Shown one piece after another: positions 1-17,275 of a DNA stretch of 17,275 nucleotides. The notes below the pieces were generated by a model. It was not told the origin of the DNA. It worked only from the letters and a program-made list of their open reading frames with translations, and ran no database searches. Origin of the DNA: Mucilaginibacter empetricola. Its GTDB lineage: Bacteria > Bacteroidota > Bacteroidia > Sphingobacteriales > Sphingobacteriaceae. Numbering within the stretch: the first letter of the stretch is position 1; each line of letters opens with the position of its first letter. The position numbers were made by a program, and so were the translations under genes. The stretch spans positions 1-17,275 of the forward strand of contig NZ_JANUBZ010000027.1 of the NCBI RefSeq assembly GCF_024808665.1, given 5' to 3'.

Positions 1-15
1 TCTTTACCATGCCTG

Positions 16-46
16 AACGTTCTTTATAGCACCCAAAAAGTGCAAA
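16..46 (+). repeat. Leader repeat and hairpin, copy 1
   Basis: The 18 bases AACGTTCTTTATAGCACC at 16-33 are repeated exactly at 5747-5764. Similarity continues after the 18-mer: this copy has a 7-base loop between GCAC (29-32) and GTGC (40-43). Stem bases are identical in the two copies while the loop differs, which suggests the hairpin matters. It lies 54 bp upstream of the RHS core start at 88. A TGA at 49-51 closes the RHS frame just downstream of the repeat. Confidence 0.7.
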
Positions 47-87
47 GCTGAAAATCGGAAACAATCGGAAAACTTTATGGCAGGCAA

Positions 88-936
88 TACGATTACGGTG
101 CACGTTTCTACGACCCTGTAATCGGTAGATGGACGACTCCAGATCCATTAGCTGAGAAGCTACCAGGTTGGTCACCTTACAACTACGTTCTTAATAATCC
201 AATGAAACTGTTTGATCCAGATGGATTATTTCCATTCCCTGTAACTGTCCGGGCTTTTGCCCCCCCAGGTTCATTCTCAGGGTCTGGTTTTGATGATGAT
301 AAAAGAGGGTTCTCTGCAAGTTCAAACGCAAGTTCACGTTTGTCGCAGACTACAACAATCAATCCGGTTACTGGGGAAGTTTCAGGTGGGCATGTAACCA
401 GCACTGGTACACATTTCTTTGGTATCCCAGTTGGGAACGCAGAAAACTTTTCTTCTGAAGGCTCGGTAGATAGAATAGGAATGTCTGAATCTGGTGATAA
501 TCATACCCTTTCGGTAGATGAACATCTTACTGGTTCTGATCCAGCAGGCTTGAAACTCGCACCGGACGTAATGTTAAATTCAGGGATTAGTCTAACAGAG
601 AATGATAAGGCAGGATTTTTAGATGCTAATATCACTTTGACAGGTAAAGGCTTCCCTGCTTCTGAAGCACTTATTGGCGATACAGGCGGTAAAAACATAT
701 TATTGACGGGTGCTGCTACTTATGGGGGATTAACCGATTTGATTAAAAATGATCCAAAGCAGGTGGCATCAATTGGTGTGCGCATATCTATCGATGGAAA
801 AGGTAACTTTACAGGTGTAACCTATAATGGTAAAAACTATTCTGTAGCCGACTGGAATAAAGCCCAACAAGCAGCACCAGCAGGGCCACACCATAATTAC
901 TCAAAGCAAAATATACAAGGACAAACCGAACAATGA
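88..936 (+). CDS. Orphan RHS C-terminal tip 1 (toxin-like, 5'-truncated)
   Basis: This is the C-terminal end of an RHS-repeat protein, cut off from any RHS barrel. The frame opens with [10 protein letters not shown] (88-117), then RW..PDPLAEK and a YNY..NNP..LFDPDGL segment: the end of the RHS core that precedes a polymorphic toxin tip. The rest (about 235 codons) is a variable domain with RAFAPP (250-267) and RGFS (304-315) motifs. I have seen similar motifs in Bacteroidota RHS proteins but cannot tie them to a known toxic activity. The frame is closed upstream by a TGA at 49-51 and the first ATG is at 202, inside the core, so the tip probably needs recombination onto a full RHS gene to be displayed. 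Its stop overlaps the next start (ATGA), which indicates coupling to the downstream gene. Confidence 0.75.
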   Translation, partial: YDYGARFYDPVIGRWTTPDPLAEKLPGWSPYNYVLNNPMKLFDPDGLFPFPVTVRAFAPPGSFSGSGFDDDKRGFSASSNASSRLSQTTTINPVTGEVSGGHVTSTGTHFFGIPVGNAENFSSEGSVDRIGMSESGDNHTLSVDEHLTGSDPAGLKLAPDVMLNSGISLTENDKAGFLDANITLTGKGFPASEALIGDTGGKNILLTGAATYGGLTDLIKNDPKQVASIGVRISIDGKGNFTGVTYNGKNYSVADWNKAQQAAPAGPHHNYSKQNIQGQTEQ

Positions 937-1250
937 AACGACCAACCTACACTATAGTTAATGTCATTTATCAAATTATAATATGCTGGCTGCTGGTTAT
1001 ATTGAACGCATTTTATAACGACTTGCTCATTCCGGAAAGTTTAGCACATTCATCTGCCAGGCTTGGACTAAAGATACTTATATCAGTGGCAGAAGGAGTC
1101 ATACTAATAGCAGCAGCTTATGCAGGCAATCGAGTGTCGTTAAGTGATAAGGATGATAAAGTAACTCAAAAGAACATTGCAAATAGAACCGGCATAGTGC
1201 AATTAATCATCACAGTGTGCTTTATGTTAGTTGTGATATTAAAAGGTTAG
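933..1250 (+). CDS. Small three-helix membrane protein, candidate immunity protein 1
   Basis: This 105-aa protein has three likely membrane helices at about residues 8-26, 46-64 and 86-103, with a charged stretch (SDKDDKVTQK) before the last. The start overlaps the stop of the RHS tip by four bases, the usual layout of a toxin and its immunity gene, and a terminator follows about 35 bp downstream. In polymorphic toxin systems an immunity protein normally lies directly after the tip. Membrane-embedded immunity proteins usually protect against toxins acting at the membrane or in the periplasm. I do not recognise the family. The immunity role rests on position and translational coupling only. 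Confidence 0.7.
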   Translation: MKRPTYTIVNVIYQIIICWLLVILNAFYNDLLIPESLAHSSARLGLKILISVAEGVILIAAAYAGNRVSLSDKDDKVTQKNIANRTGIVQLIITVCFMLVVILKG

Positions 1251-1283
1251 TCCGAATAAAAAAGAAAGATAAATGTAAATGAC

Positions 1284-1310
1284 AAGGCCCCGATTGGGGC
1301 TTTGTTCGTT
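1284..1310 (+). terminator. Rho-independent terminator after cassette 1
   Basis: An 8-bp stem (AAGGCCCC/GGGGCTTT, with one G-T pair) has a GATT loop and is followed by the T-rich TTTGTTCGTT. It lies between the candidate immunity gene and the convergent XRE gene. Its 3' part, GGGCTTTGTTC (1297-1307), recurs exactly at 7305-7315 after the second cassette. Confidence 0.75.
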
Positions 1311-1319
1311 ATATAGCTT

Positions 1320-1673
1320 TTACTTAGCCAATTCCTGGATATGCCTTTTGGTGATAAAGGCATCAATAAAAGTCTTCACTAAATGCTTGTCTTCTGGACT
1401 AAATAACTCCACTTCCTTAAACTGTTTAAGCAACTCCCGGTCAGTCAATTGCGCCGTTACCGATGCATCGTTCATGTCATCATTCACCAGGTAATCGGTA
1501 GTTGTATCTAATGCCCTGGCCAGCTTGGAAAGCATATCTGCTGCGGGTTTGGCCTTGCCTATTTCATAGCGGCCAATCTGCACATAAGAGTTCAGCCCTA
1601 CGATTTTGGCAAGCTCCGCCTGTTTCAGTCTTTTTTGGGTACGTAACTCCTTGATCCGGGTTCCTAAACTCAT
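1320..1673 (-). CDS. XRE-family HTH transcriptional repressor
   Basis: This 117-aa protein has an N-terminal Cro/CI-type helix-turn-helix (about residues 5-60; LKQAELAKIVGL, then QIGRYEIGKAKP as recognition and support helices). A short C-terminal region typical of Bacteroidota XRE regulators follows (LTDRELLKQFKEVE, then VKTFIDAFI near the end). It is divergent from the ATPase-recombinase operon with 143 bp between the starts, so it most likely represses that operon and perhaps itself. A dyad overlapping a candidate promoter at 1750-1765 is a plausible operator. The same gene position is occupied by an XRE remnant after the second cassette (7314-7397). The family is clear; the target is inferred. 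Confidence 0.9.
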   Translation of the reverse strand: MSLGTRIKELRTQKRLKQAELAKIVGLNSYVQIGRYEIGKAKPAADMLSKLARALDTTTDYLVNDDMNDASVTAQLTDRELLKQFKEVELFSPEDKHLVKTFIDAFITKRHIQELAK

Positions 1674-1695
1674 TATTCCTTTGTTCCTATCACAT

Positions 1696-1703
1696 CAAAA
1701 ATA
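1696..1703 (-). promoter_or_regulatory. Candidate -7 box of the XRE gene
   Basis: On the minus strand these bases read TATTTTTG, an exact match to the Bacteroidota -7 consensus TAnnTTTG, 23 bp before the XRE start codon. I see no good -33 TTTG at the usual spacing, so this is tentative. Confidence 0.3.
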
Positions 1704-1749
1704 CTAAGAATGATACACATAGTACGTGGTAAAATACAAATGGGTATCA

Positions 1750-1778
1750 CTTGCGTTTATGCAAGCATCATACTTATT
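1750..1778 (+). promoter_or_regulatory. Candidate promoter and operator for the recombinase operon
   Basis: CTTGC-GTTTAT-GCAAG (1750-1765) is a 5-bp dyad. It covers TTG (1751-1753), which could be the -33 box, with TACTTATT (1771-1778) as a partial match to the Bacteroidota -7 consensus TAnnTTTG, 17 bases further on. The start codon at 1817 is 38 bp downstream. The divergent XRE repressor would be the natural ligand of the dyad. The boxes are imperfect. Confidence 0.4.
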
Positions 1779-1816
1779 ATTGCAAAATAAAAAAGTAGTA
1801 TATAACATCATTTCTA

Positions 1817-3439
1817 ATGAATATAGTACCTAAGCTTATTGTAGAAAATCCTGAACTATTGTTATACATTGATGGCAAGCTGCACATTACCGTCCTGGGC
1901 GGCATTAAACTGACCGGCTTTGACCGCTTAAAAGTAACATTAAAGATAGTCTGCGGTGGCAATACCAACAGGGCTTTCCGCCACAACCTTGACTTGTACA
2001 ACAGCGTTCACACCGAACAACTGATAGAGAAAGCCGGTGATGCGCTGGATGTGGCTGCGGCTGAACTCGCCGGGGTGATCAGCCGCTTGACTGCTGCCCT
2101 GGAAGATTACCGGACTGAGCGGCTGGAAGCCATGAAGCCTAAACAAGCCGAAAAGAAGCAGCTCACCGAGGGTGAGCGTAAGATTGCCCTGCAATACCTT
2201 AAAGCGCCAGGCCTGCTCGGCAGAACCAGGCAGGCCATCGCGTCCAGCGGCATTATCGGTGAGGAGGTGAACAGCCTGATCGCTTACCTGATCTATACTT
2301 CGAGAAAACGGAATACACCACTTCACCTGATGTGCCTGGGGCCGTCAGGCAGCGGTAAGACCTGGTTACAGGAAAAGGTCAGCGACCTGATCCCGGAAGA
2401 AGATAAGCTGGAAATCACCGTACTGAGCATGAATGCCTTTTACTATTTCGGCAGGGATGAACTGAAAAACAAGCTGTTGCTGATCGAAGATATGGACGGC
2501 GCGGATAACGTGCTGTACCCGCTCCGGGAACTGCAAAGTAAGCGCAGGATAACCAAAACGGTAACCCTGAAAGATAGCAAAGGTAACTTGAAAACGGTTA
2601 CGCTCACTGTGGAGGGGCCGGTATGCGTGAGCGGTTGCACTACCCGCGAACAACTTTACGAGGACAACGCCAACCGGTGTATCCTGCTGTACACGGATGG
2701 CAGCCCTGAACAGGATAAAAAGATTATGGATTACCAGCGCAAGCAAAGCGCCGGGGTGGTGGATCATCAGGCCGAGCGCATTGTCCGCGAACAGTTGAAG
2801 AACGTACAGCGGTTATTACAGCCTGTCGGCGTTAAAAACCCCTATGCCACCTACCTGCAACTGCCGGAGGCCATATTCAAGCCCAGGCGCACCATGCTGC
2901 TGCTGCTTTTGTTCACCGAAACCATTACCTGGTACCACCAGTATCAAAGGGAACTGAAAACCGATATCAGTACCGGCGAGCAGTATGTGGAAAGCACAAT
3001 TGAAGATATAGAAGTCGCCTTTTCACTGCTGGAAACAACCCTGCTCAAAAAGAGCGATGAGTTAAATGATGCCTGCCGTTCATTCTTTGAAAAACTGAAA
3101 GCCTGGCTAAGACAAAACGATAGCGAAACCTTTTACAGCAAAGAGGTGCGTCCTGTCTTTCGCCTCAGCCCAAGCAGCCTGGCTCGTTACCTGTATGAAC
3201 TGGAACGCATGGGTTATATCAAAATCGCGCGTGGCAGCCGCTATAAAGGCTTTGAATACAAAGTACAAAGCTGGGATGATCTGGAAACCCTGACCAATGA
3301 TGCACATTCCATGATGGCAAACATCCTGACTGAGATACGTAAGGTAAATCATAGTACCCCAGGTGTAGCCCAAAGCCCCGATGGGTTACATAACGTGCAG
3401 AAAACCAGTAAGAAAACCGCAGTAACCCAAGCGCAGTAG
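1817..3439 (+). CDS. AAA+/MCM-like P-loop ATPase with C-terminal winged helix
   Basis: This 540-aa protein has a Walker A motif GPSGSGKT (residues 175-182), a Walker B stretch KLLLIEDMDG (219-228), a sensor-like SGCTT (272-276) and a following NANRC arginine that may act as a finger. The C-terminal part has a winged-helix-like segment (LSPSSLARYLYELERMGYIKIARGSR). The core resembles the ATPase part of Bacteroidota mobile-element primase/helicase proteins, but no CHC2 zinc finger or TOPRIM region is visible; about 120 residues of unclear fold precede it. It is the first gene of an operon with two tyrosine recombinases (3 bp to the next start). It may remodel DNA or load a helicase during excision or replication of the unit. 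The ATPase call is firm; the role is inferred. Confidence 0.75.
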   Translation: MNIVPKLIVENPELLLYIDGKLHITVLGGIKLTGFDRLKVTLKIVCGGNTNRAFRHNLDLYNSVHTEQLIEKAGDALDVAAAELAGVISRLTAALEDYRTERLEAMKPKQAEKKQLTEGERKIALQYLKAPGLLGRTRQAIASSGIIGEEVNSLIAYLIYTSRKRNTPLHLMCLGPSGSGKTWLQEKVSDLIPEEDKLEITVLSMNAFYYFGRDELKNKLLLIEDMDGADNVLYPLRELQSKRRITKTVTLKDSKGNLKTVTLTVEGPVCVSGCTTREQLYEDNANRCILLYTDGSPEQDKKIMDYQRKQSAGVVDHQAERIVREQLKNVQRLLQPVGVKNPYATYLQLPEAIFKPRRTMLLLLLFTETITWYHQYQRELKTDISTGEQYVESTIEDIEVAFSLLETTLLKKSDELNDACRSFFEKLKAWLRQNDSETFYSKEVRPVFRLSPSSLARYLYELERMGYIKIARGSRYKGFEYKVQSWDDLETLTNDAHSMMANILTEIRKVNHSTPGVAQSPDGLHNVQKTSKKTAVTQAQ

Positions 3440-3442
3440 AAA

Positions 3443-4339
3443 ATGCAAGGCACCTTAAAAAATCCACTCTATATCCGGCTTCATGCAGGCTTTACCCAAT
3501 GGCTGCGCGTGATGAACTTTGAACCGACCAGCCACCGGGATATGCCCAAAATGCTGGCTGAGTTCCTTGCTTTTCTGGAAGCCCGTGATTGCAATCACCA
3601 GCATGATATTCAGGAAAAACATCTGAAAGACTACCTGCAATACCTGCAAGAACGACCTAATGATAAATGGGGCGGCGGGTTAAGCAAAAACTATATCCGC
3701 AAGCAATTCCAGGTGATCCGGAAGTTCGTCCGCTACCTTACTGAAAGCGGGCAAGGCAGTTTTACGGTGAAGCTGCGCATTAAAGGCAAAAGCACCAATA
3801 TCAAAAGCATTCTCACTTTACAGGAGGTCAGCAAGCTGTACGATGCTGTTAAGGATGATTTATTCGGGCTGCGGGACAGAGCCATGCTTGCCCTGTATTA
3901 TGGCTGCGGCCTGCGGAGAAACGAAGCGGTTAACGTCAATGTTAAAGACATTCTGTTAGATAAGGAACTGGTTTATGTAAGGAAAGGTAAGGGTTATAAA
4001 GAGCGTTACGTGCCGCTGGCCGGTACCGCTAAAGCCGATCTGGAAAACTATATCTTGTATGCCCGTCCTCATCTGACCGGGGATAAAAAGGATGATGCCT
4101 TATTCCTGAATGTTAATGGTAACAGGCTCACTGGCGAAACGTGTTATACGCGCCTGCAAACATTGAAAAATACAGCGGGCATCAATAATAAACCTGTCGG
4201 GCTGCATACCCTGCGACATAGCATTGCCAGCCATCTGCTGCATTCAGGAATGCCGTTAGAACAAATCCAGCGCTTTTTAGGACATAGCAGCATGGAAAGT
4301 ACGCAGATCTACACCCACTTAAAGCATGAGCAAATATAA
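3443..4339 (+). CDS. Tyrosine recombinase/integrase (XerC/D-like)
   Basis: This 298-aa site-specific tyrosine recombinase has an N-terminal core-binding (SAM-like) domain at about residues 8-105 and a catalytic domain at about 120-298. The catalytic set is complete: R158 (GCGLRRNEA), K183 (GKGYKER), H255-x-x-R258 (HTLRHS), H281 (LGHSS) and nucleophile Y290 (TQIYTHL). Length is that of XerC/XerD. It starts 3 bp after the ATPase gene and overlaps the next recombinase by 14 bp, so the three genes are very likely co-transcribed and translationally coupled. It probably performs strand exchange at the unit's ends. The substrate site is unknown; the direct leader repeats are the best candidates. Confidence 0.95.
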   Translation: MQGTLKNPLYIRLHAGFTQWLRVMNFEPTSHRDMPKMLAEFLAFLEARDCNHQHDIQEKHLKDYLQYLQERPNDKWGGGLSKNYIRKQFQVIRKFVRYLTESGQGSFTVKLRIKGKSTNIKSILTLQEVSKLYDAVKDDLFGLRDRAMLALYYGCGLRRNEAVNVNVKDILLDKELVYVRKGKGYKERYVPLAGTAKADLENYILYARPHLTGDKKDDALFLNVNGNRLTGETCYTRLQTLKNTAGINNKPVGLHTLRHSIASHLLHSGMPLEQIQRFLGHSSMESTQIYTHLKHEQI

Positions 4340-5621
4340 GTTTGCCCCCGCTGTACTGGCAGTTTTAGCGCCTTTCCAGGCTTATTTGCAGCAGGGACAT
4401 TACGATAAAGACTATATCCGGCGGCATAAGAGCTATGTGGGTATCTTCCTGGAATGGATAGCGCGGAAAAGCCTTGCCGCAGAACAGGTGACCCCTGCGG
4501 ATGTGCTGGAGTTTGCCAGCCAGCTTAAAAAGGATAGCCATAGGATCAGGCAGGTTAACCGGATGTTGCTGTCGGTAAGGTATTACTTTAAATGGCTTGG
4601 GCAGGCAGGCAATAATCCCGCAGCCGGCATTATCCTGAAAGGCGCGACGAGGCAAGTTCCCCAGAGCCTGTATAACTTTGCTCCTGCTATACTGACAGCT
4701 TTAGAGCCTTTCAAATCTTATTTACAACAGGAACATTACAGCCCAGACTACATTCGTCAGAACAGGAACTATGCAGGTATCTTCCTCGAATGGACAGAAA
4801 AAGAAAGTCTTGCGGTCGAGCAGCTTACTCATGCGGATGTCTTAGAGTTTGCTGACCGGCTCAGGCAGGAGAACCATAGTATCAGGCAAATCAATCAAAT
4901 GATGCGATCTTTAAGATATTACTTCGCTTATTTGCAGCAGGAACGGAAGATTAGTCATAACCCGGCAGCTGGTATTATCCTGAAAGGAACGATCATAAAT
5001 CTTCCTCATGATCTGCTAACCAACGCCGAAATGGAATCACTTTATGAAAGTTACCAGGTAACGGACAACCGTACCTATCGTAATAAAGTAATTGTTGGTT
5101 TGTTTGTCTATCAGGCGATTACCAGGGACGAACTACTCCACCTGCGGCCTGAACACCTGAAACTTAGAGAGGGTAAAATCCATATTCCCGCAACAGGAAG
5201 GCAGCTTGGCAGGGCGCTTGCTTTACAACCTCATCAGATCCTGGAATTGCACGAATATCTTTTGGTGATCCGGCCAAAGATAATAGCCGAACGCCTGGAC
5301 GAACGTTCAGGGCGAAAGCCAGGTCACTATAAAGATGAACAGAATATTGAGCGGCTCTTTATCAGCATCAGTAGTCTTGAAGACCTTAGAAACAGCTTGT
5401 TGCACCTCAATTATGCATTACGTAAACTGAATCCAAAATACAAACATGCAAAGCAGATCAGGCAAAGCGTCATAACAGAATGGCTTAAGGAAAAGAACCT
5501 GCGGACAGTCCAATATATGGCGGGGCATCGCTATGTCAGCTCGACCGAACGCTACAAAACCAACAATCTGGAAGACCTTAAAGAGGCGCTCAACAAGCAT
5601 CACCCGCTAACTCTATCTTAA
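4326..5621 (+). CDS. Second tyrosine recombinase with duplicated core-binding domain
   Basis: This 431-aa protein has a tandem duplication of the N-terminal core-binding domain. Residues 4-106 and 116-221 align along their whole length (YKFAPAVL/YNFAPAIL, YIRR/YIRQ, GIFLEW/GIFLEW, ADVLEFA/ADVLEFA, NPAAGIILKG/NPAAGIILKG). The catalytic domain follows: R267 (AITRDEL), R379 (AKQIRQS), H401 (AGHRYVSS) and Y410 (TERYKT). The usual His three residues before the second Arg is Lys376, and the beta-hairpin Lys may be replaced by Arg292. It starts inside the previous gene (14-bp overlap). Two adjacent recombinases, one atypical, recall Tn554-type elements where both are needed. The extra domain could let it bind a longer or double site. 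The catalytic substitutions may make it a structural partner. Confidence 0.92.
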   Translation: MSKYKFAPAVLAVLAPFQAYLQQGHYDKDYIRRHKSYVGIFLEWIARKSLAAEQVTPADVLEFASQLKKDSHRIRQVNRMLLSVRYYFKWLGQAGNNPAAGIILKGATRQVPQSLYNFAPAILTALEPFKSYLQQEHYSPDYIRQNRNYAGIFLEWTEKESLAVEQLTHADVLEFADRLRQENHSIRQINQMMRSLRYYFAYLQQERKISHNPAAGIILKGTIINLPHDLLTNAEMESLYESYQVTDNRTYRNKVIVGLFVYQAITRDELLHLRPEHLKLREGKIHIPATGRQLGRALALQPHQILELHEYLLVIRPKIIAERLDERSGRKPGHYKDEQNIERLFISISSLEDLRNSLLHLNYALRKLNPKYKHAKQIRQSVITEWLKEKNLRTVQYMAGHRYVSSTERYKTNNLEDLKEALNKHHPLTLS

Positions 5622-5659
5622 AAAAATCCCACCACTTATCCGGCAGAATCTTCAAAAAA

Positions 5660-5724
5660 CAACCAATCCGACAGGCCCCTGTGGTAAAAATCAACCAACC
5701 ATCGGGACTTGTGAGCAAAAAAAT
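5660..5724 (+). repeat. Imperfect tandem repeat after the recombinases
   Basis: Two adjacent units of about 32-33 bp both start CAACCAA and both hold TTGTG or CTGTG followed by an A-rich run (5660-5691 and 5692-5724). The first contains a small dyad ACAGG-CC-CCTGT (5671-5682). They lie between the last recombinase and the right leader repeat, a place where arm-type recombinase sites or a terminator could sit. The match between units is only moderate. Confidence 0.3.
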
Positions 5725-5746
5725 ATCTGTTAACTTTACAAGCATA

Positions 5747-5776
5747 AACGTTCTTTATAGCACCGAAAACGTGCAA
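5747..5776 (+). repeat. Leader repeat and hairpin, copy 2
   Basis: AACGTTCTTTATAGCACC (5747-5764) exactly matches 16-33. The GCAC/GTGC stem (5760-5763 with 5770-5773) is conserved while two loop bases differ. It lies 54 bp upstream of the second RHS core at 5818. In the RHS frame a TAG falls inside the repeat at 5758-5760, so no upstream protein can read through into the tip. Confidence 0.7.
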
Positions 5777-5817
5777 GTGGAAAAACCAGGGAAAATCTTA
5801 AAACTTATAAGGGGCTA

Positions 5818-6660
5818 TACGATTACGGTGCACGTTTCTATGATCCGGTAATTGCAAGGTGGACATCTCCCGATCCTCTTGCAGAGATAAGTAGAAGATG
5901 GTCTGCCTACAACTATGGAGAAGATAATCCAATTAGAAATATTGACGTTGATGGTTTATACGATCAGACAATATTGGATAAATGGGCCGCGGAAGATAAT
6001 GCATTTTTCGGACTTAGTGAAAGTGGCGCACCGGCTAGTATAACCACATTAGCATCAACCAGTAAAACCACTTCCGGACAATCAAAGGATAAGGGAAAAA
6101 AGAAAAAAGAGGCAAAAAAGAAAGAGGCAACAAAATTCTGGCCTAATTGGTATTATTACATACCTGTTTTGGGGCAAGCGGGGGCATCTGGTGACGATCT
6201 TACTGATGGTAACTATGGAAAAGCTACTACCGAAGAAATTACAGGTATATTAGAATTATATATGTTTGCAGAGAACGAGGCTATTTCGGCGTATAATTCA
6301 ATACTAGGAATGTTTTCAAAAAATGCTGCGGAGGGCATGGCAACTCAAATAGAAAGGGCTGCTGCAGGTATCAACATTTATTCTGGGCAGAAATCAGGTG
6401 CTGCGCTTACTGAAGTTGTTGATGACTATTATTCACAAATGGTAAATAAAACGTTCAATCCTAAACATGGAGTAGCAGGAGTAATAGAAAATGGTAAATA
6501 TATTTTAACTGATGGGAACCACAAGATGGCAGCCGCACTTAGATATATGATAGAGAAAGGTGATCCTCTGTACGTTGAGCAATTAATAAAAAATGGGAAT
6601 TGGTCCACTAAGCCCGCTTTAGAGTACGGTATAAAAATATATAAATTCGTTGTTAAGTAA
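5818..6660 (+). CDS. Orphan RHS C-terminal tip 2 with ParB-like toxin domain (5'-truncated)
   Basis: The frame begins with [10 protein letters not shown] at 5818, identical over the first 22 bases to tip 1, then [16 protein letters not shown] and DVDGLYD: the end of an RHS core. A Lys-rich linker (about 6088-6132) and a predicted helical region follow. The last ~75 codons carry [15 protein letters not shown] (6502-6546), matching the G-x-H-R-x-x-A-A motif of the ParB/Srx-like superfamily, which includes nuclease or nucleotide-using toxin domains. No ATG lies in the frame before the variable domain (a TTG occurs at 5974) and a TAG at 5758 closes it upstream, so it is probably a displaced, silent tip. 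The ParB-like fold call rests on one motif. The candidate immunity gene starts 2 bp after the stop. Confidence 0.72.
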
Positions 6661-6662
6661 TT

Positions 6663-7241
6663 ATGGATAGTTATTTTATTGTTGACTATAATGCCTCTGA
6701 ATCAAACGAGATTCTCAATTTCAAGTTTAAATATGGAAAACTTTATTTGTTTTTTTCCAATGAGCTTGGGATACAGGGCGATGTTTTTAATGCCATCGCT
6801 GAAAAAGTTTCTTTTATAAATTCTTTTTTTAAAAGTGCAATCAAAGTGCCAATATACTTTGAAGAGAATAAAAAGGAATTATTGAAGATAAAAGATGACA
6901 TAAATATATCTGGAACATTCCCTTTCAGGTTAGAAGAGTATGGTTTATTTGATGAAATCTTATTGGTATTACTTGCTGAATTGAAAAAAGTCAATATTGC
7001 AATAGTTGAGACAACCGGTTTAAACGAGTCTTCAATAATTAAACTAATCAAATTTAGTTTTTTGTACTTAGAATTAAATCCCGAAAAATCAATAATATTA
7101 ATCGACAACAATTACTCAAATGTTAACACTAAAATAATTTTGAAAATTGATAAAGAAAATATTGATAAAAATTTGGACGAATGGTTACCAGATACATTAA
7201 AATCCAACAAAATTTTGATTGATTTCAAGTTGAAGTTATAA
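6663..7241 (+). CDS. Candidate immunity protein 2 (unknown family)
   Basis: This is a 192-aa protein without signal peptide or membrane helix, rich in Lys, Ile, Asn and Glu. Its DNA is clearly more AT-rich than the recombinase operon before it, a frequent trait of horizontally acquired immunity genes. It starts 2 bp after the ParB-like tip and is followed by a terminator about 45 bp downstream, the usual place for the cognate immunity gene. A cytoplasmic, soluble inhibitor would suit a toxin acting on nucleic acid or nucleotides. I recognise no domain; the function is inferred from position only. Confidence 0.75.
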   Translation: MDSYFIVDYNASESNEILNFKFKYGKLYLFFSNELGIQGDVFNAIAEKVSFINSFFKSAIKVPIYFEENKKELLKIKDDINISGTFPFRLEEYGLFDEILLVLLAELKKVNIAIVETTGLNESSIIKLIKFSFLYLELNPEKSIILIDNNYSNVNTKIILKIDKENIDKNLDEWLPDTLKSNKILIDFKLKL

Positions 7242-7285
7242 AGCAGGGGTTGCGATAATAACGTGATAGGTAATAAACAACAAAT

Positions 7286-7316
7286 CAAAGCCTGGCCTAG
7301 CGCTGGGCTTTGTTCA
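7286..7316 (+). terminator. Rho-independent terminator after cassette 2
   Basis: The arms CAAAGCC and GGCTTTG flank an imperfect inner stem and are followed by TTCATTT. The 3' arm plus tail GGGCTTTGTTC (7305-7315) is identical to that of the first cassette at 1297-1307. It separates the immunity gene from the convergent XRE remnant. Confidence 0.6.
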
Positions 7317-7397
7317 TTTAAACGAGGCTTTTTTAGCTTTATAATCCCTTATAAGTGCGTCAATAATCATGTACACCTGCTTGGTTATTGCAGCATT
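7314..7397 (-). pseudogene. C-terminal remnant of an XRE repressor
   Basis: On the minus strand this short frame reads AAITKQVYMIIDALIRDYK and then a Lys-rich end (stop TGA at 7316-7314). It aligns with the tail of the XRE gene at 1320-1673 (KHLVKTFIDAFITK) and has the typical ID-A-x-I pattern of Bacteroidota XRE C-termini. It has the same position and orientation as that gene: after a tip, an immunity gene and a terminator. The frame is closed by a stop at 7398-7400, so the HTH part is missing. The break coincides with the 5' end of the NUMOD4 gene. This is the trace of a truncated second unit. Confidence 0.6.
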
Positions 7398-8143
7398 TCA
7401 TAGCAACACTAAAACAAAAATGTATTCCTGATATTTGTGCTTTAAAAGAACCTATACTTTCAGCTTTGGATCAGATACCTCCTTATCAAAACAAATCTCT
7501 AATCGATATTCCCGGAGAAGCATGGAAAGACATCCCCGGTTTTGAAGGATACTACCAGGCTTCGACAAAGGGAAGGATAAAGTCGCTTGACCGTATTATT
7601 CCCCATCCGCGTTTGTATCAGCAATTCGTCACAGGACGCATATTAAGTCAGAAGGTTAATAAAAGTAACAATGTAAAAACCGGTGAGCCCATGATTGACT
7701 TGGGGGTAACCCTGACGGTAGAAAATCAACAATACTATGGCAATGTCCGCAGGCTCATTTATAAGACGTTTATTGACCCGCGCCTTGATTACAAGAAAAA
7801 TGGGGTATATGTAATCAATATTGACGGTGACGGCTATAACAACCGCCCGGAAAACGTGGCCGTAGTGACCAAAAGTGAAAAGCAATTGCGGGCTGTCGCA
7901 CGGGAACGGGTGCTGCCATCAAACCTAAAAACGGCTGACCGTTCCGATTGGAAAAAGAATAATTCCACCAGCAAGCCAATCGAGCAATACGACTTGCAAG
8001 ACAACCTTATCAAGCGATATCCCAGCATCAAAGAAGCTTCCCGGCAAACGAAGACTGATAATAAAGCCATTATTCAAGTAGCAAAAGGAATGTACAAGCA
8101 ATGGAATGGCTTTGTGTGGAAGTATGGCAAAAGTAGCTTGTGA
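7388..8143 (+). CDS. NUMOD4/HNH-like homing-endonuclease-type protein
   Basis: Domains in order: a NUMOD4 motif (about residues 44-70: EAWKDIPGFEGYYQASTKGRIKSLDR, split here only by context), an HNH-like region (VRRLIYKTFI at 120-129 and INIDGDGYNNRPENVAV at 143-159) and a NUMOD1-like C-terminal helix-turn-helix (KPIEQYDLQDNLIKRYPSIKE at about 196-216, then GFVWKYG). NUMOD modules bind DNA next to homing nuclease domains. The two usual HNH histidines are replaced by Arg121 and Asn144, so classical HNH catalysis is doubtful. The frame has no ATG before about codon 102; the start given is a TTG at the junction with the XRE remnant, so the 5' end may be truncated. No intron is visible around it. 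Confidence 0.75.
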   Translation: MQHFIATLKQKCIPDICALKEPILSALDQIPPYQNKSLIDIPGEAWKDIPGFEGYYQASTKGRIKSLDRIIPHPRLYQQFVTGRILSQKVNKSNNVKTGEPMIDLGVTLTVENQQYYGNVRRLIYKTFIDPRLDYKKNGVYVINIDGDGYNNRPENVAVVTKSEKQLRAVARERVLPSNLKTADRSDWKKNNSTSKPIEQYDLQDNLIKRYPSIKEASRQTKTDNKAIIQVAKGMYKQWNGFVWKYGKSSL

Positions 8144-8162
8144 CTATTGCAACTAAGGGGTA

Positions 8163-8238
8163 CGGGGATTTCCCCGCAAGATAGGGTGTCACCGACGGAA
8201 AGATAGCAATCTGTCACCGGCGATACACCCTATCTTGC
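8163..8238. other. Candidate oriT or recombination site: nested inverted repeats
   Basis: A dyad CGGGG-ATTT-CCCCG (8163-8176) abuts a perfect 14-bp inverted repeat, GCAAGATAGGGTGT (8176-8189) and ACACCCTATCTTGC (8225-8238), with a 35-bp centre. Inside are two direct copies of TGTCACCG (8187-8194, 8212-8219). Mobilisation elements often place inverted and direct repeats of this kind at the transfer origin beside the relaxase gene, which here starts about 1.65 kb away. The two flanking genes converge, so it could also be a bidirectional terminator, but there is no T tract. Confidence 0.45.
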
Positions 8239-8241
8239 TAA

Positions 8242-8979
8242 CTAACGTCTAAAATAGCGTCGGCTATCATCCCATAAAATTCGTATTCCCATGAAAGCTA
8301 ATTGGATAAACATAATCAACAAATAACCGGCATAGATAAGAAGTGGTATACATAAAATTAATTTGAAATAATAGAAAAACCCCGGTTTTTCATATTCGTA
8401 CTGAACGCTATAGCCAGCTGACTGTAACCGGTCAATATAAGAATGTAGCGGCTTTTCATCAAAATGTTCGCTTAAATCAATATCATCTAATTGGCCATCA
8501 TTATTTTTATCGTATATGCTAAGTTTGCTATCTTCATCGTCAACTTTAATAATAGAAATTCTTGTTAAGGCGTCATTAATGGGGGTATCAATAGTAATGA
8601 TGCCATTAGGGCTGACATTTTTTTGTAAGACAAACAAGCTGTCAGAAGAAAATTTCAAGGAAGTAGTAGTATTTAAAACAAAGGTTTTTGGTTTTACTTT
8701 AGTCACATTACCATTTTTTTCAACATTGCTTTGATTCTGGTTGGAACTGTTACTCACATCTGGGGCAAGGCGTGGAGAAGTAAATATTTTTAAAAGTATA
8801 ATGAAACCTAAAGATATTACAATAAACCACTGTAAAAATTTAAGTATTTGAGAAAGCGTTTCACTTGTTGCTGGTATTTTTCTTATAGCTGCTTGAAGTA
8901 TTATTAGCACCACAACGCAGACGATTCCGAATAAATCGCCCTTCTCAATAATATAAGTATATATTTCCTTCAGGTCCAT
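8242..8979 (-). CDS. Membrane protein with EF-hand-like loop, unknown
   Basis: This 245-aa protein has two N-terminal membrane helices (about residues 16-32 and 48-66), a soluble middle of about 130 residues and one or two C-terminal helices (201-234). The middle has DKNNDGQLDDID (157-168), which follows the EF-hand/dockerin calcium-loop pattern at positions 1, 3, 5 and 8, with Asp in place of the usual Glu at position 12. It ends in a basic tail (RRYFRR). It lies downstream of the relaxase, in the same direction, across a 71-bp AT-rich gap. The DNA is AT-rich like the STAND gene. I do not recognise the family. It may be a cargo gene or an envelope-associated accessory of the element. Confidence 0.75.
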   Translation of the reverse strand: MDLKEIYTYIIEKGDLFGIVCVVVLIILQAAIRKIPATSETLSQILKFLQWFIVISLGFIILLKIFTSPRLAPDVSNSSNQNQSNVEKNGNVTKVKPKTFVLNTTTSLKFSSDSLFVLQKNVSPNGIITIDTPINDALTRISIIKVDDEDSKLSIYDKNNDGQLDDIDLSEHFDEKPLHSYIDRLQSAGYSVQYEYEKPGFFYYFKLILCIPLLIYAGYLLIMFIQLAFMGIRILWDDSRRYFRR

Positions 8980-9050
8980 TAAATTGACATTTAGGTTTTT
9001 GTAATAAATATAAAAAAATAATATTAAAACTCCTCTGTGAAAAGAGTCTC

Positions 9051-9890
9051 TTACCGTTCCCTGTCGCCACTATCATGCTCCCTGTTATCCCTTTCCTTTT
9101 GCCATTCTCGCACGGCCTGTATCTCTGATAATACTCGGTCTTCCTCGTTTCGTTCAACGGGCAAGTTTTCAAATTGCTTATCCGGCAAGAGCCGGGAAAA
9201 GCGAAACTTCAAGCCCTCATATTCTATGCCGGTTGGCTTGCCGTTGCGTTCGTAATGATGCAATCCTTGGTCACGCAATAGTGCTAAAAACTCCTGCTGG
9301 CTTGTCGCCTGTGCAAAACACCTGTTTACGGTATCAATGATCTGCTCGCGCTGTTTGGCATGCCACTTTGCATGGCTTTGGTACCGCTCTCCTTTGCCAT
9401 GTTCCGGCAGGCTTTCGGTGAGTTCGGGGTATTTTCGCTTATGGTATTCCTGAAAAGATACCTTCAGTTCATGCAGTTTTGCTTTGGACATGCCAAAAGA
9501 TTTGCCTGTCCTGAAATGCAGTCCTGACGTACAGAAATGGATATGGACATGCTCCTTGTCCCGATGAACGGCACCGATCATTACACCAGTTATGCCGCGC
9601 AGTCTGATATATTCGTGTACCAGATCGTCAATCATTTCCTTTGTAATAAGTTCGTTGTTCTCTTTAGCGGACAGTGAAACGAGTTCATGAAAAAAATAGA
9701 TTTGGTCGGTACGTGATTGCAGCCTAAAACTTTGATTTTCGATAAATTCATGCACATAATCGTTTATAGTGTCAGAACGCAGATTATGCGTATACACCTC
9801 TGCTTTATTTATCTTTGCTTCATCTAGTATGTATTGGATAAGGCTTTTGTATGAAGGGTTATGCCTCGCTAGGATTTTGACGATTGCCAT
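9051..9890 (-). CDS. MOBP-type relaxase / mobilisation nuclease
   Basis: A relaxase nicks oriT and pilots the transferred strand. With the start at MAIVK (ATG 9890-9888) the protein is 279 aa. Y20 in LIQYIL is the likely catalytic tyrosine (motif I), FFHELVSLS (about 67-75) resembles motif II, and H109 with HVHIHF (H114, H116, H118) is the metal-binding motif III of the MOBP/PF03432 family. The frame is open further upstream to 10010, but that stretch runs through a terminator hairpin and the end of the next gene, so I reject the longer start. It is shorter than many relaxases and ends in a charged, helical tail. The coupling ATPase and MobC-like protein lie 4.6-6 kb away on the other strand. 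Confidence 0.88.
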   Translation of the reverse strand: MAIVKILARHNPSYKSLIQYILDEAKINKAEVYTHNLRSDTINDYVHEFIENQSFRLQSRTDQIYFFHELVSLSAKENNELITKEMIDDLVHEYIRLRGITGVMIGAVHRDKEHVHIHFCTSGLHFRTGKSFGMSKAKLHELKVSFQEYHKRKYPELTESLPEHGKGERYQSHAKWHAKQREQIIDTVNRCFAQATSQQEFLALLRDQGLHHYERNGKPTGIEYEGLKFRFSRLLPDKQFENLPVERNEEDRVLSEIQAVREWQKERDNREHDSGDRER

Positions 9891-9918
9891 ATTTAAAGCT
9901 ACGAAATTGGTGGGCAAT

Positions 9919-9946
9919 AAAAAAGCACCGTGCAATTGCACGGTGC
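9919..9946 (-). terminator. Strong Rho-independent terminator of the 191-aa gene
   Basis: A perfect 22-bp palindrome (9925-9946; arms GCACCGTGC/GCACGGTGC, loop AATT) is followed on the minus strand by TTTTTT (9924-9919). It lies just after the 191-aa gene and 29 bp before the relaxase start. This is the textbook form, and it argues that the relaxase is read from its own promoter or by read-through. Confidence 0.88.
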
Positions 9947-9958
9947 GGGTTTGTTGTG

Positions 9959-10534
9959 TTACTTTTTTAAGAACGGTTTGAGTTCCTCGGGAAACTCCTC
10001 CATCGGCCAACCCTTTTTCAAGGTTTCAATCAATAGCAGATATGCTTCTTTCCAGGTGCCTTTGAAGTTGTACAGTTCGGGATACTTTTCGACATCTTCC
10101 AATGTGGGCAATAAAAAAATTGCTGTACCATCGTCTTTCAAGTGTACCTCATAACCTTCTTTGGCTTGGTTTGTATTGTGGGTATACGAAGGTGCAAAAA
10201 AAGCGATGATAACGATGCTCCTCTTTAGCAATTCTATGTCTTCGCTTCCTACAATAGCACTGAATGGGCAGTACTCCCAACCCGGTAGATTGCCAAATAA
10301 CGTTACCCACTGCTGTAAGATTTCATCTTGTTGATCCCAGGCTGTAACGGTTAAGCTATAGTCTAAGGGTACTTTATCTTTTAAGAACAAATGAACCTCA
10401 GGGATTTGAGCTAAGAAGCTGCTTAAAAACACCTTGTCTTCATTAGAGATTGATCTCAACTGTGCAAGGCGTTTTTGGATTAAATTGAGTCGATCAATGT
10501 TAGAGATTGTTAAAGCTATATGTTTCATGGTCAT
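9959..10534 (-). CDS. Hypothetical protein, unknown
   Basis: This 191-aa soluble protein has no signal peptide or obvious membrane helix. It is rich in Leu and Glu, with an N-terminal helical region and a C-terminal segment with several aromatic residues (LYNFKGTWKEAYLLLIETLKKGW). Two starts are possible, ATG 10534 and ATG 10528. A dyad GGTCA-TTTAG-TGACC (10529-10543) spans the first one and could be an operator or hinder initiation there. It ends in a strong terminator, so it is probably a single-gene unit between the relaxase and the STAND-like gene. I recognise no family. Confidence 0.7.
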   Translation of the reverse strand: MTMKHIALTISNIDRLNLIQKRLAQLRSISNEDKVFLSSFLAQIPEVHLFLKDKVPLDYSLTVTAWDQQDEILQQWVTLFGNLPGWEYCPFSAIVGSEDIELLKRSIVIIAFFAPSYTHNTNQAKEGYEVHLKDDGTAIFLLPTLEDVEKYPELYNFKGTWKEAYLLLIETLKKGWPMEEFPEELKPFLKK

Positions 10535-10543
10535 TTAGTGACC
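10529..10543. promoter_or_regulatory. Dyad over the start of the 191-aa gene
   Basis: GGTCA (10529-10533) and TGACC (10539-10543) form a 5-bp dyad around TTTAG. It covers the first of two possible start codons. Its place suggests an operator or an RNA hairpin affecting translation, but a 5-bp dyad can occur by chance. Confidence 0.25.
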
Positions 10544-10652
10544 AAAAAAAAGAATAATAGCCCCTTCCTTTGAACACCAAACGACGCCGCTTTTAAGGAA
10601 CTGCATTCAAGAAGATTACTACTATTTTTGAAATATGTCAATAGTTAATGAA

Positions 10653-12194
10653 CTACCATTTCAACAACGAGGATATGAAAAACCATTTAATAGCGCTTGT
10701 TTCAGGGTCAATAAAATATTGTTCAATTTGATCTTTTATTCTTTTATCAAAATACCAGTCGTCAAAAAGAGGTTGACACAAGCCTTTTTCAGCTAATAAA
10801 TTATGATGGAATTTACACAAATAAATATCCTTGAAGAATTCGGGAAACCTGGGATGTCTTTCTAGTGAAAAGTAGCGAAATAAAGCTTTAGCAATTGGAT
10901 CATTTGGATTATATTCTAACAGACGATCGCTAGTCTCATTATTTTTGTTTAAAATATCTGCGAGTCTTAACAGGGTATCCCACGACATAATTGTTGAGTT
11001 ATTATTAAATAAGCAAGACGCATAATAAAGAGCTAAAGCCAAGCCAGGGAATTTCCCATATATTTTCTTTTGATCTGTTACAATAATCTCTTTGAACTGG
11101 TGCAATAACGATTTGCTTTTCGTGAACAATCCATCTTCAGCAACACGTATAATAACAAACAGTAAAATAAAAATTGGACAGCTATTAATTGCTGACGTGG
11201 TTAATTGACTCGCAACGGCCTCGCTCCATTTTTTATTTGGGCCTATTACTTTCTTTAGGATTGATTTATTTTCATCATTTAATAATTCAAACGCGCCATT
11301 CTCTATAAGATAAGGATAATAGGGCTTTTCTTCAATAGGATTGCGGTCGCCAATGATTATTCTAATATTATTAATTTTTGCAATCCTATTTAGAAACCTG
11401 CTAGTTAATTCGGGGCTATGCCTATAGGCATACCAGTCTTCCAATATTAAAAGATAGTTTTCAAAGGTTTTGCTAAGTTTGAGTAAGTCAATGTCGCAAA
11501 AATCATTAAGATCATCTATCCATATTGCCCTGAATCGCTCACTTTTACAGGCTATAGTCAAATGCCTTAAAAATGTGGACTTGCCACAGCCACCATTTCC
11601 ATGAATCACCGCAATTATTTTACTCTTTCCCTCAAAATTTTCTAATATGTGATCCTTAACGGTTTCGTTGAGATTTCTTGGATAGTCCCATGTTTTAATC
11701 ACGCCATGCCATTGGCAGTCATTGTCATCTTTTCCTAAATAATAATCAACATGACTATATGGATGATTTTTAGATAATATATTTTGAACGAAGTCATCGT
11801 TGATTAAAATGGCACTTTCCAGCTTTATATGCCTGAAATTTGAAAAATGCGTCCCTTTCGGCGTTCTAATTGTGTCTGCATATAAATCAAGAGTTTCAAT
11901 CGTGAATATTTCAAATTCTTGACTTGTAGATAGCGGAATTTCATTTCTGCTTTCGTCAAGCTCTCTATGAAAAAACTTAATCAGTGTTTGACCGTCAAAA
12001 CGCACGTCCACACTTTTCTCAATATCATCATTGAATGAAATATAGTATGGACTCCGCTTGTCTTTGCTAAATTTTAGCAGTTCATCCTTTAAATCCGCTT
12101 TTCTGTTTTCGGTATACCTATAAATGACTCTATCCCTCAATGAGTTTAAGAAAAATGCAGAATAACTTTTCCTGTCGGAAGGCTTCTTTTTCAT
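10653..12194 (-). CDS. STAND-like P-loop NTPase, possible defence gene
   Basis: This 513-aa protein has a Walker A motif GNGGCGKST (residues 199-207), a Walker B strand YLLILEDW (247-254), a following RIIIGDRNP sensor-like strand, and a helical region after it, as in STAND/AAA ATPases of sensing proteins. The first ~180 residues carry no motif I recognise and may be an effector or sensor domain. No C-terminal TPR, WD or LRR repeats are visible, and the protein ends abruptly (FFISSLLKW), so it may lack a C-terminal sensor. The gene is markedly AT-rich compared with the operon at 12605-17075 and sits between mobilisation genes, as cargo would. Many STAND NTPases on mobile elements act in phage defence; that role here is inference. 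Confidence 0.8.
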   Translation of the reverse strand: MKKKPSDRKSYSAFFLNSLRDRVIYRYTENRKADLKDELLKFSKDKRSPYYISFNDDIEKSVDVRFDGQTLIKFFHRELDESRNEIPLSTSQEFEIFTIETLDLYADTIRTPKGTHFSNFRHIKLESAILINDDFVQNILSKNHPYSHVDYYLGKDDNDCQWHGVIKTWDYPRNLNETVKDHILENFEGKSKIIAVIHGNGGCGKSTFLRHLTIACKSERFRAIWIDDLNDFCDIDLLKLSKTFENYLLILEDWYAYRHSPELTSRFLNRIAKINNIRIIIGDRNPIEEKPYYPYLIENGAFELLNDENKSILKKVIGPNKKWSEAVASQLTTSAINSCPIFILLFVIIRVAEDGLFTKSKSLLHQFKEIIVTDQKKIYGKFPGLALALYYASCLFNNNSTIMSWDTLLRLADILNKNNETSDRLLEYNPNDPIAKALFRYFSLERHPRFPEFFKDIYLCKFHHNLLAEKGLCQPLFDDWYFDKRIKDQIEQYFIDPETSAIKWFFISSLLKW

Positions 12195-12213
12195 ATAAGT
12201 ATTGACAAGGTAG

Positions 12214-12250
12214 GCGAACCAGTGGGTGCTAATGTGCGAACCAGTGGGTG
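12214..12250. repeat. Two 15-bp direct repeats between divergent genes
   Basis: GCGAACCAGTGGGTG occurs at 12214-12228 and again at 12236-12250, a 22-bp period (about two helical turns). It lies in the 103-bp region between the STAND-like gene and the plus-strand operon. Spacing and place fit a cooperative operator for a regulator of one or both transcription units, or a short iteron pair. Confidence 0.6.
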
Positions 12251-12297
12251 GTTAATAAATCAGAATTTTTAGTGCTTTACATTCAAATAATAAAGTT

Positions 12298-12588
12298 ATG
12301 GAAAATTCATCAAAAATTAATTTGTCACCCCTCGAAATTGAGATTGAAAATAAAATTTCATCAGCATACCTATTCTCAATTGCCGTCCTAGTTGGGCAAC
12401 TTGATTTTTACGCGGTATTTATCGGCCTACAAACTCAATCTGACTTCACGGAAAAATCTGCCAAACAAGTGATCGGGCAAGAACACGACATAACCAAACT
12501 CGCTGCTGAATTCAGAAATGCTCCTGGCGTACGGCAGAAAGCCGATAAATACCACCAACTAATCGCGGAAATAAAAAAACACCGATAA
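12298..12588 (+). CDS. Small hypothetical protein, first gene of the mobilisation operon
   Basis: This 96-aa protein has a moderately hydrophobic stretch near residues 22-45 (AYLFSIAVLVGQLDFYAVFIG) and a charged helical C-terminus (KADKYHQLIAEIKKHR). It starts 48 bp after the direct repeats and lies 16 bp before the next gene in the same direction, so it probably leads the operon running to about 17270. I recognise no family. Its upstream DNA would carry the operon promoter, but no convincing -33/-7 pair is visible. Confidence 0.65.
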   Translation: MENSSKINLSPLEIEIENKISSAYLFSIAVLVGQLDFYAVFIGLQTQSDFTEKSAKQVIGQEHDITKLAAEFRNAPGVRQKADKYHQLIAEIKKHR

Positions 12589-12604
12589 CTAAAATCAAAT
12601 CAAT

Positions 12605-13678
12605 ATGGAAACAAAAACAATCAGGTACTATAGACCCGAGTTAGAGGCGGCTATAGACCAAAAAATCAAACTGATCGAGCAACGCATTCCGATCGTTTCG
12701 GTAGCCTACGCTGAAAAGAAGCAACCGCCCTTATCCAATGAAGATATAGGGCCGTTTTTCAAGGAGTTCCATATGCAGTATCAAGAGGTGTTTATCTCGA
12801 TAAATGAAAGCCTGCAAACGAACAATCTGGAGGCAAACCGCAGCAAGGACAATGAGCAAACGAAGCGAGATATTGCCGAGCTGCAAAACCAGCTAACCAT
12901 GGCGCAGGAGCAAGCCTTGCACAAGGGCGAAAATACCGCAAGAAAGCTGAAAGCACCATTCCAACCCGTCCGGCTTTACGGAGCATGGAGTGTGGTCGGT
13001 GTACTTAGCCTGTATGAAGGACTGATGAACCGTCCTAGCTTTTCTGCATGGGGCTACAATCTCATAGAAGCAATCGGCATGAGCATCGCTTTTGCAGCCC
13101 TGCTTGCAATTCTGGCACATACCTTTGAGCGCATCGTCAGAAAAGGCAAAACGCCTTGGCAACAGCGAGCAATTGCAATTGGCCTCTTGCTGTTCCTTGC
13201 AATCATCTTTTGGTATCTGGCGGAGGTCAGGGCAAATTATCTCTCCACGGTCGTCACCGAAAACACCGGCGCTGCCGCGTCATTCAGCCCGATCCCGTTC
13301 ACGCTTCTTTCCATGCTTCTTTTTATCGCCTCGGTCGCTACCTGCCACTTCCTGCTGCCGACCCGCGAGCAGCGTGAAATCATGCGTGAATACCAGTCGC
13401 AACGAGAGGCGGAGCGAAAAATCCCCAATAAAGTTACACAACTGGAGGCGGCTATAGAAGCCAAAAGAGTTGCAAATGAGGAAATGAACCGCATGTACAA
13501 TTCCTTGCAGGAATACGGTGCCATGCTTGAACAGCGCATTATTACGCACGCCAAACATGGCCTAGAATTATGGAAGAAGCATAATTTTTTGCATCGGACA
13601 GATGGCAGGCCGAAATCATTCGACAACGAATATTCTTTTGAATTCAAAACTTTTTTTCATCACGTAAACCTTTTGTAA
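12605..13678 (+). CDS. Coiled-coil membrane protein, possible transfer accessory
   Basis: This 357-aa protein has a cytoplasmic-type N-terminal half with a coiled-coil-like region (about residues 80-110), four likely membrane helices (about 123-140, 152-173, 187-206 and 230-251), a second coiled coil (about 255-300) and a soluble C-terminus. It has no signal peptide. It is immediately followed by a lipoprotein gene (one base between stop and start), and both belong to the operon with the coupling ATPase. This suggests an inner-membrane component that works with the lipoprotein during transfer. I recognise no T4SS family in it. The function is inferred from context. Confidence 0.75.
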   Translation: METKTIRYYRPELEAAIDQKIKLIEQRIPIVSVAYAEKKQPPLSNEDIGPFFKEFHMQYQEVFISINESLQTNNLEANRSKDNEQTKRDIAELQNQLTMAQEQALHKGENTARKLKAPFQPVRLYGAWSVVGVLSLYEGLMNRPSFSAWGYNLIEAIGMSIAFAALLAILAHTFERIVRKGKTPWQQRAIAIGLLLFLAIIFWYLAEVRANYLSTVVTENTGAAASFSPIPFTLLSMLLFIASVATCHFLLPTREQREIMREYQSQREAERKIPNKVTQLEAAIEAKRVANEEMNRMYNSLQEYGAMLEQRIITHAKHGLELWKKHNFLHRTDGRPKSFDNEYSFEFKTFFHHVNLL

Positions 13679-13679
13679 A

Positions 13680-14506: not shown

Positions 14507-14513
14507 AATCATT

Positions 14514-15926: not shown

Positions 15927-15933
15927 TGATGCA

Positions 15934-16356: not shown

Positions 16357-16364
16357 TAAAAATA

Positions 16365-17075: not shown

Positions 17076-17084
17076 GACACGCCG

Positions 17085-17270: not shown

Positions 17271-17275
17271 GCTGT

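Follow-up and report, generated by a model that had tools for sequence, protein, structure and literature searches.

A predicted site-specific integrative element that exchanges the toxin ends of RHS genes in Mucilaginibacter empetricola

The stretch of DNA analysed here (the window) is the whole of contig C27, 17,275 nucleotides of the Mucilaginibacter empetricola genome, which comprises 5.83 Mb in 39 contigs. Its left part carries ends of RHS toxin genes, one behind the other, and between two of them lies a unit of 5,730 nt (unit B, 91-5820) that runs from a GATTA at 91 to a GATTA at 5821 (Table 1). Each unit of this kind consists of the 3' end of an RHS gene, from the codons for DYGARFYDP through the variable tip, followed by a putative immunity gene, an XRE repressor gene and an MCM-like helicase gene; intact units add two tyrosine recombinase genes. 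Open reading frame (ORF) and profile searches agree with the gene set that an earlier sequence-only reading had listed, namely an RHS tip, a small ORF, XRE, ATPase and two tyrosine recombinases. The tips have the make-up of polymorphic RHS toxins, with an RHS core end (TIGR03696), a variable C-terminal region and then a small gene. In profile searches the putative immunity gene of tip B had no family match and that of tip C had none above the family's own cut-off. No relaxase was matched among the scanned ORFs of 91-5820, and relaxases lie outside the unit, which is not the layout of an integrative and conjugative or an integrative and mobilizable element.

Table 1. Features of unit B and its neighbours in the window
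Feature	Position	Strand	Basis
Right end of upstream unit A (contig C32), including the 18-mer at 16-33	1..90	+	Last 95 nt of C32 (reversed) = first 95 nt of window
Crossover core GATTA, left junction of unit B	91..95	+	Junctions of identical copies elsewhere; restored palindromes
RHS tip of unit B, headless (in-frame stop upstream)	91..936	+	Translation; TIGR03696 RHS core end
Putative immunity gene of tip B, by position only	933..1250	+	ORF overlaps tip end
XRE repressor, RstR-like	1320..1673	-	HTH_3 E 4.7e-13; RstR 78.3 bits, just under cut-off of 80
MCM-like AAA+ helicase, marker gene of the element	1817..3439	+	
Tyrosine recombinase 1, XerD-like	3443..4339	+	PF00589 E 3.6e-41; conserved catalytic residues
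Tyrosine recombinase 2, N-terminal domain doubled here	4326..5621	+	PF00589 E 7.6e-7; two SAM-like stretches; 261-nt internal repeat
Outward Bacteroidota-type promoter-like site, TTG-N19-TAACTTTA	5709..5738	+	Strict pattern in 25/28 right-end stretches
18-mer box of unit B right end	5747..5764	+	Box conserved 74-76 nt ahead of core
Crossover core GATTA, right junction of unit B	5821..5825	+	Junctions of identical copies; restored palindromes
Displaced headless RHS tip C	5821..6660	+	In-frame stops upstream; TIGR03696
Putative immunity gene of tip C, by position only	6663..7241	+	ORF directly behind tip

The sequence-only reading started from an exact 18-bp repeat inside similar leaders, and this repeat, AACGTTCTTTATAGCACC, is present at 16-33 and 5747-5764, within leaders of 75% and 76% similarity over 68 and 88 nt. 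Exact copies number four in the genome (two in the window, one each on C31 and C32); two more sites appear with two mismatches, and a reversed control pattern gave none. The genome search that the reading had proposed was run across the genus with AACGTTCTTTATNGCAC and returned 31 matches in 16 of 149 genomes (control 0), 26 of them followed by GATTAYGG at the right-end spacing; two of the remaining five run into a contig end (C32 and G048:C75). The 18-mers had been considered as possible recombination sites. They were rejected as crossover sites, as the junctions lie at a GATTA core in the Asp-Tyr-Gly (DYG) codons, 74-76 nt past the start of the box. Nor does the copy at 16-33 begin the window's element; contig overlap assigns it to the upstream unit A. 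Element ends lying elsewhere had been named as grounds for refutation, and the ends do shift, by about 75 nt. The concept stands, and sequence supports a dedicated mobile unit through which an RHS locus gains a new tip with its putative immunity gene while the previous ones are displaced.

Repeated copies in four genomes assembled in one or two contigs place the ends. G036 has three copies at different places, with exact blocks of 5,829 and 5,838 nt; G056 and G116 have two copies each (6,284 and 5,681 nt exact), and G028 has two copies that match exactly over 5,978 nt and, in addition, a tandem pair with an exact match of 5,981 nt. The identity of the copies is bounded at, or within some 13 nt of, GATTA. 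Where the flanks differ right beside the core, identity begins at (C)GATTAYGG on the left and ends at GATTA on the right; elsewhere it reaches some nucleotides beyond the core because the targets share the RHS motif or the apex of a hairpin.

One copy each in G036, G028 and G056, and likewise one in G054, lies in a long hairpin and not in an RHS gene. When the flanks of these four insertions are joined at GATTA, 73, 72, 69 and 69 of 73 positions are paired, and joins shifted by 1-6 nt pair at most 33 of 73. Restoration of the hairpin sets the predicted boundary to one nucleotide, independently of RHS sequence. The palindromes themselves differ, since the left arm in G054 is only 35-39% identical to those of the other three. 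A fifth hairpin copy (G093), whose left arm is absent from its contig, falls outside this palindrome test (n = 4). The hairpins (L055, L062, L063 and L070) have stems of about 73 bp, an AAA loop and the RHS core in both arms at the apex, and are flanked by TTTAACTAATAGTTA-like and TTTAAAGTTAA-like sequences. The apex pattern has eight matches in the 149 genomes: six directly behind the right end of an element, one (G115) behind a diverged right end and one, in G017, at the end of a contig. None of these eight was seen to be empty, and their number and placement do not support the idea that the hairpins are a common genome repeat. Recombinase genes thus lie inside precise repeated ends that share a short core with the target, as in integrative elements of the tyrosine recombinase type.

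A second unit is present in M. empetricola itself. Contig C32 (5,706 nt, reversed) carries tip A, a second ORF and an ORF that looks XRE-like by eye, together with genes for a helicase and two recombinases that are related to the window's. C24 and C12 (the latter reversed) both break off inside a long RHS gene, with open frames of 1,378 and 1,342 codons, and the final 95 nt of each recur as the opening 95 nt of C32. The closing 95 nt of C32 in turn open both the window and C31 (reversed), and the match with the window stops at 96 nt. Such exact overlaps are what an assembler leaves around a two-copy repeat. Because they occur at both ends of C32, an identical unit A most likely lies behind two different RHS cores and ahead of two different older tips; the cores on C24 and C12 are 72% identical over about 1.5 kb directly upstream of the join. 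The order at one locus would be unit A, then the diverged unit B, then tip C, and C24 and C12 could pair with the window and C31 either way. The unit in first position is fused in frame to the RHS core and the older tip behind it is headless. G048 probably holds another two-copy unit, as its unit contig ends at the box and two contigs begin with identical leaders (C75, C34 and C54). At the other end of the window, 16867-16961 is an exact 95-nt overlap with C31:1-95 and C31 rejoins C27 sequence; the sequence from 16867 onward is probably present twice in the genome.

The helicase gene was found in 25 of the 149 genus genomes (E <= 1e-20), in 32 of 351 sampled genomes of the family (E <= 1e-50; 8 of 25 genera) and in 12 of 395 sampled from the phylum (E <= 1e-40), the source genome being included each time. 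A tabulation of the copies that reach 65% identity over 600 nt or more has 48 entries. It left out 18 loci under named records (partly from the same genomes, hence the loss of G328), two Sphingobacterium metagenome-assembled genomes (MAGs) whose left ends are fused to RHS, and also overlapping stretches, pieces of lesser length and copies below 65%. On the left side, the RHS motif stands at the start in 45 of 46 assessable copies: in 20 an open RHS core of at least 250 codons reads into it in frame, 18 copies are headless and 7 lie at the edge of their stretch, with 1 lacking the motif and 2 not assessable. The right side shows 23 headless RHS motifs, 2 motifs with 48 or 149 open codons ahead, 5 hairpins, 9 copies with neither and 9 not assessable (25 RHS motifs and 5 hairpins of 39 assessable). 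Both recombinases were matched in 35 of the 48. DYGARxYD-coding sites total 72 in nine genus genomes (reversed pattern 0), and the chance of one falling in the 3.5 kb upstream on the same strand is about 0.2% for an even spread. G028 has an array of six helicase genes, one of them partial, at 5.169-5.201 Mb.

Tips were compared past residue 55 in 26 units. Of 325 pairs, 322 are unrelated and 3 related (E < 1e-4), and the same units include 47 helicase pairs that are at least 88% identical. The related tip pairs (G000.A/G132, G028.u3/G116 and G051/G054) are not among these close helicase pairs, and tips therefore also appear to pass between element lineages. Pfam matches were found in three of 21 tips (Ntox21, HNH and DUF5675); tips A, B and C had none.

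Residues R158, H255, R258, H281 and Y290 of recombinase 1 are invariant in 23 of 23 sequences, as are R379, H401 and Y410 of recombinase 2. The N-terminal domain of recombinase 2 is tandemly duplicated in the window (4328-4588 and 4664-4924, 72% DNA identity); the protein has 431 aa and the other 22 compared have 285-334 aa. Searched by sequence, the helicase had no significant match among solved structures (best E 0.029), and a fold comparison gave a significant match for residues 105-504 only of the predicted model. PADLOC reported repressor-type matches for the XRE protein and a weak DolB match for the helicase.

An alignment of 28 right-end stretches, which include copies within one genome and are not independent, has a conserved AACGTTCTTTAT box and, upstream of it, a promoter-like sequence, which we take to resemble a Bacteroidota promoter. 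TTG-N17-22-TANNTTT[AG] occurs at -112 to -115 in 25 of the 28, and a relaxed pattern in 26, compared with 0.35 expected from shuffles, for a pattern that was composed after viewing the alignment. The site points outward, toward the displaced tip, and the 18-mer lies just downstream of it, inside the right end. Perhaps this site keeps the displaced tip or its immunity gene transcribed.

Relatives in other families, with helicases 44-51% identical, have their units at codons for YYPFG, a conserved RHS motif about 40 residues upstream of DYGARFYDP. The DYGAR regular expression misses these relatives and the YYPFG site was found in following up. In G500, where the duplicate is exact over 6,784 nt, and in G750, G478 and an Oleispira-labelled MAG, YYPFG lies on both sides of the helicase gene, the front one within 799-1,272 open codons and the rear one within 5-34. 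The G037 lineage (34-36% identity) has YDYGHRMYDP at both ends.

The hairpins may point to a vehicle. A MobA/VirD2-type relaxase gene lies some 2.5-3.3 kb from L055, L062 and L063, and that near L070 is the same gene as L055's, judged by the start of its sequence. For the hairpin units of G036, G028 and G056, the same genome also has an RHS gene that carries an identical or near-identical copy; no such copy of the G054 hairpin unit was seen in the helicase search of that genome. We infer that the unit may enter cells on conjugative or mobilizable elements and then move from these to RHS genes.

Taken as a whole, these observations are best explained if 91-5820 is a site-specific integrative element that exchanges the toxin end of an RHS gene, and we regard this as very probable. 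As read from sequence, the unit ends at the GATTA core, identical copies occupy several sites, the unit in first position is fused in frame and headless tips lie behind. In the proposed mechanism the two tyrosine recombinases would join a circular form of the element to GATTAYGG, which encodes Asp-Tyr-Gly within DYGARFYDP, a conserved motif close to the end of RHS genes. The left end of the element would supply the rest of the RHS gene from DYGARFYDP on, and insertion would therefore give the resident core a new tip in frame, followed by a new immunity gene. The former tip and immunity gene would end up headless behind the element, where the outward promoter-like site of the right end would probably keep the tip or the immunity gene transcribed; in the circle, the same site would drive the element's own tip and immunity gene. 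Repeated insertion would stack units. The MCM-like helicase suggests that the circle can replicate, which would allow one element to occupy several sites. Hairpin copies beside relaxase genes suggest conjugative or mobilizable elements as carriers between cells.

A wider proposal is that such units form a Bacteroidota-wide class of self-replicating, self-inserting exchangers of RHS toxin ends. Its lineages would have settled on DYG or YYPFG codons, its outward promoter would keep displaced immunity genes alive, and it would pass from cell to cell by docking in hairpins that belong to conjugative or mobilizable elements and imitate the RHS site at their apex. For this fuller picture we see the chances as evenly divided.

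Tips could also be spread by homologous recombination or gene conversion between RHS loci, with the recombinases and helicase as passengers. Identical copies do share a genome, many genes contain the RHS motif as conserved DNA, and in Salmonella an orphan tip recombines with the upstream rhs gene (PMC4927057). However, the junctions fall at the same few bases even in hairpins without RHS sequence, and the conserved right-end structure reaches up to the core. The upstream cores also differ, by the identity given above for C24 and C12 and with only short blastn matches between the two of G036, whereas the next 5.7-5.8 kb are identical. With the catalytic residues of recombinase 1 kept in all sequences as well, we consider this route very unlikely.

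An integron-like arrangement, in which tips are passive cassettes captured by a recombinase platform and the hairpins are attC sites, would fit the stacking of units with the newest beside the expressed core and older ones behind, and also the use of hairpins as insertion sites. It is very improbable given that 35 of 48 copies carry their own two recombinases and that crossover occurs in the hairpin apex and also in RHS codons. The integron integrase models score below cut-off (TIGR02249, 107 of 265 bits; NF011946, 63.5 of 435), as does the mixed XerA/integron model NF040815 (171.7 of 220). The equation of the hairpin with attC was rejected on the apex crossover and the failure of these models. 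Several copies have stops or no recombinases, as expected if the units were fossils, once mobile, and the array a record of old insertions; but exact or near-exact copies at separate sites in several genomes point to recent movement or copying, and fossils are most unlikely to be the explanation.

Several observations weigh against the element as proposed. The join of unit A at two loci is read from contig overlaps. The G027 copy has no nearby RHS motif, 3 of the 31 genus box matches (G018, G046 and G090) have no core, and the 9 of 39 assessable right sides noted above have neither motif nor hairpin; 8 of these 9 copies are without one or both recombinase matches. Over the table, one recombinase was matched in 4 of 48 copies and none in 9, and for 3 of these 13 the end of the stretch is no more than 850 nt away. 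The first arginine of recombinase 2 is variable among the 23 sequences, and the protein does not have the histidine that we take to be usual in the H-x-x-R motif. The toxin and immunity functions are putative and rest on position, as so few tips match Pfam. Among the 17 relatives looked at, several of them at contig ends, YYPFG was not found in G607 and G567, and the YYPFG relatives themselves mean that the predicted insertion site is not uniform across the helicase family.

Behind tip C, 7388-8143 encodes a NUMOD4/NUMOD1 HNH homing-endonuclease-like protein, also reported as a homing endonuclease by PADLOC. On C24, about 0.6 kb ahead of an RHS-type gene, there is a 91% copy of 7247-8240, and C8 has a 65% copy of 7522-8126; on account of these copies the gene may be a second mobile item of RHS neighbourhoods. 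The tip array of the window ends next to a mobilizable or conjugative region (8242-17275) with a MobA/VirD2 relaxase gene (9051-10010, minus strand), a VirD4-type coupling protein gene (14514-15926) and a weak NikA-like match below cut-off (15934-16356). An nSTAND_NTPase5 protein encoded at 10653-12194 is a possible defence or conflict gene and had no PADLOC match.

For the orphan arrays of RHS and contact-dependent growth inhibition (CDI) genes, formed by C-terminal displacement, the reference is reportedly Jackson 2009. In such arrays old tips and immunity genes are kept as headless copies behind the active gene (PMC4927057, PMC5361080, PMC13183296). The modules of CDI orphan arrays have integrase and transposase genes between them, and both transposition and site-specific recombination have been suggested as routes of change (PMC4927057); the Vibrio arrays have been likened to integrons (PMC5361080). 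Tip change and the build-up of headless tips are ascribed to homologous or illegitimate recombination (PMC5361080, PMC4927057). Recombination of toxin cassettes, its kind unspecified, and XerC/D recombinases beside immunity-gene arrays are also described (PMC3482391). The units found here share the headless old tips, but each intact one has its own recombinases and a crossover site defined at the level of the base.

In integron cassette arrays a new insert is placed beside the expressed position and older ones are pushed back. The units here, in contrast, appear self-mobile and exchange gene ends, no fixed integrase platform was seen, and the window unit carries two recombinases where an integron cassette has none of its own. 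Gamma-Mobile-Trio (GMT) elements are said to have been described by Mahata in 2024, and we know of no in-frame tip fusion by them. Recombinase 1 scores 30.2 bits, below the cut-off of 340, with the model of GmtY, which is named a recombinase in NCBIfam. Both GMT (PMC12715929) and the units here are mobile elements with offensive cargo. The rAID system shares with them the Bacteroidota hosts, a tyrosine recombinase, arrays of interbacterial conflict genes and conserved intergenic motifs, but consists of one tyrosine recombinase followed by an array of short orphan immunity genes (PMC12247911), whereas these units combine the end of a toxin gene with a helicase and two recombinases, and have RHS genes as their insertion target. 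Adjacent tyrosine recombinase genes are common to RIT and Tn554-type elements, and overlap in RIT (PMC3414803). RIT has three recombinases and the window unit two, and neither an MCM-like helicase nor toxin tips are described for either type in the available parts of that paper.

No element of such a kind was found in the open-access PubMed Central literature, a scope outside which most subscription papers lie. A unit with this gene set or site is not described in the parts available of PMC4927057, PMC5361080, PMC3482391, PMC13183296, PMC12247911, PMC3414803, PMC12715929 and PMC9765294. What appears new is the predicted job, in which a self-mobile unit makes a site-specific, in-frame exchange of toxin-gene ends; its parts belong to known kinds, and if all integrative elements of tyrosine recombinases are counted as one kind, the element would be a variant of it.

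Close precedents, such as prophages that restore the 3' end of a host gene, preserve the protein and do not change it. Protein-motif codons used as a landing site would open many RHS genes to a single element and give a product in frame. Because the predicted enzymes, their site and the mobile unit can now be specified down to the base, tip exchange is open to direct test. If the reading is true, these Bacteroidota would possess a dedicated machine for changing bacterial weapons.

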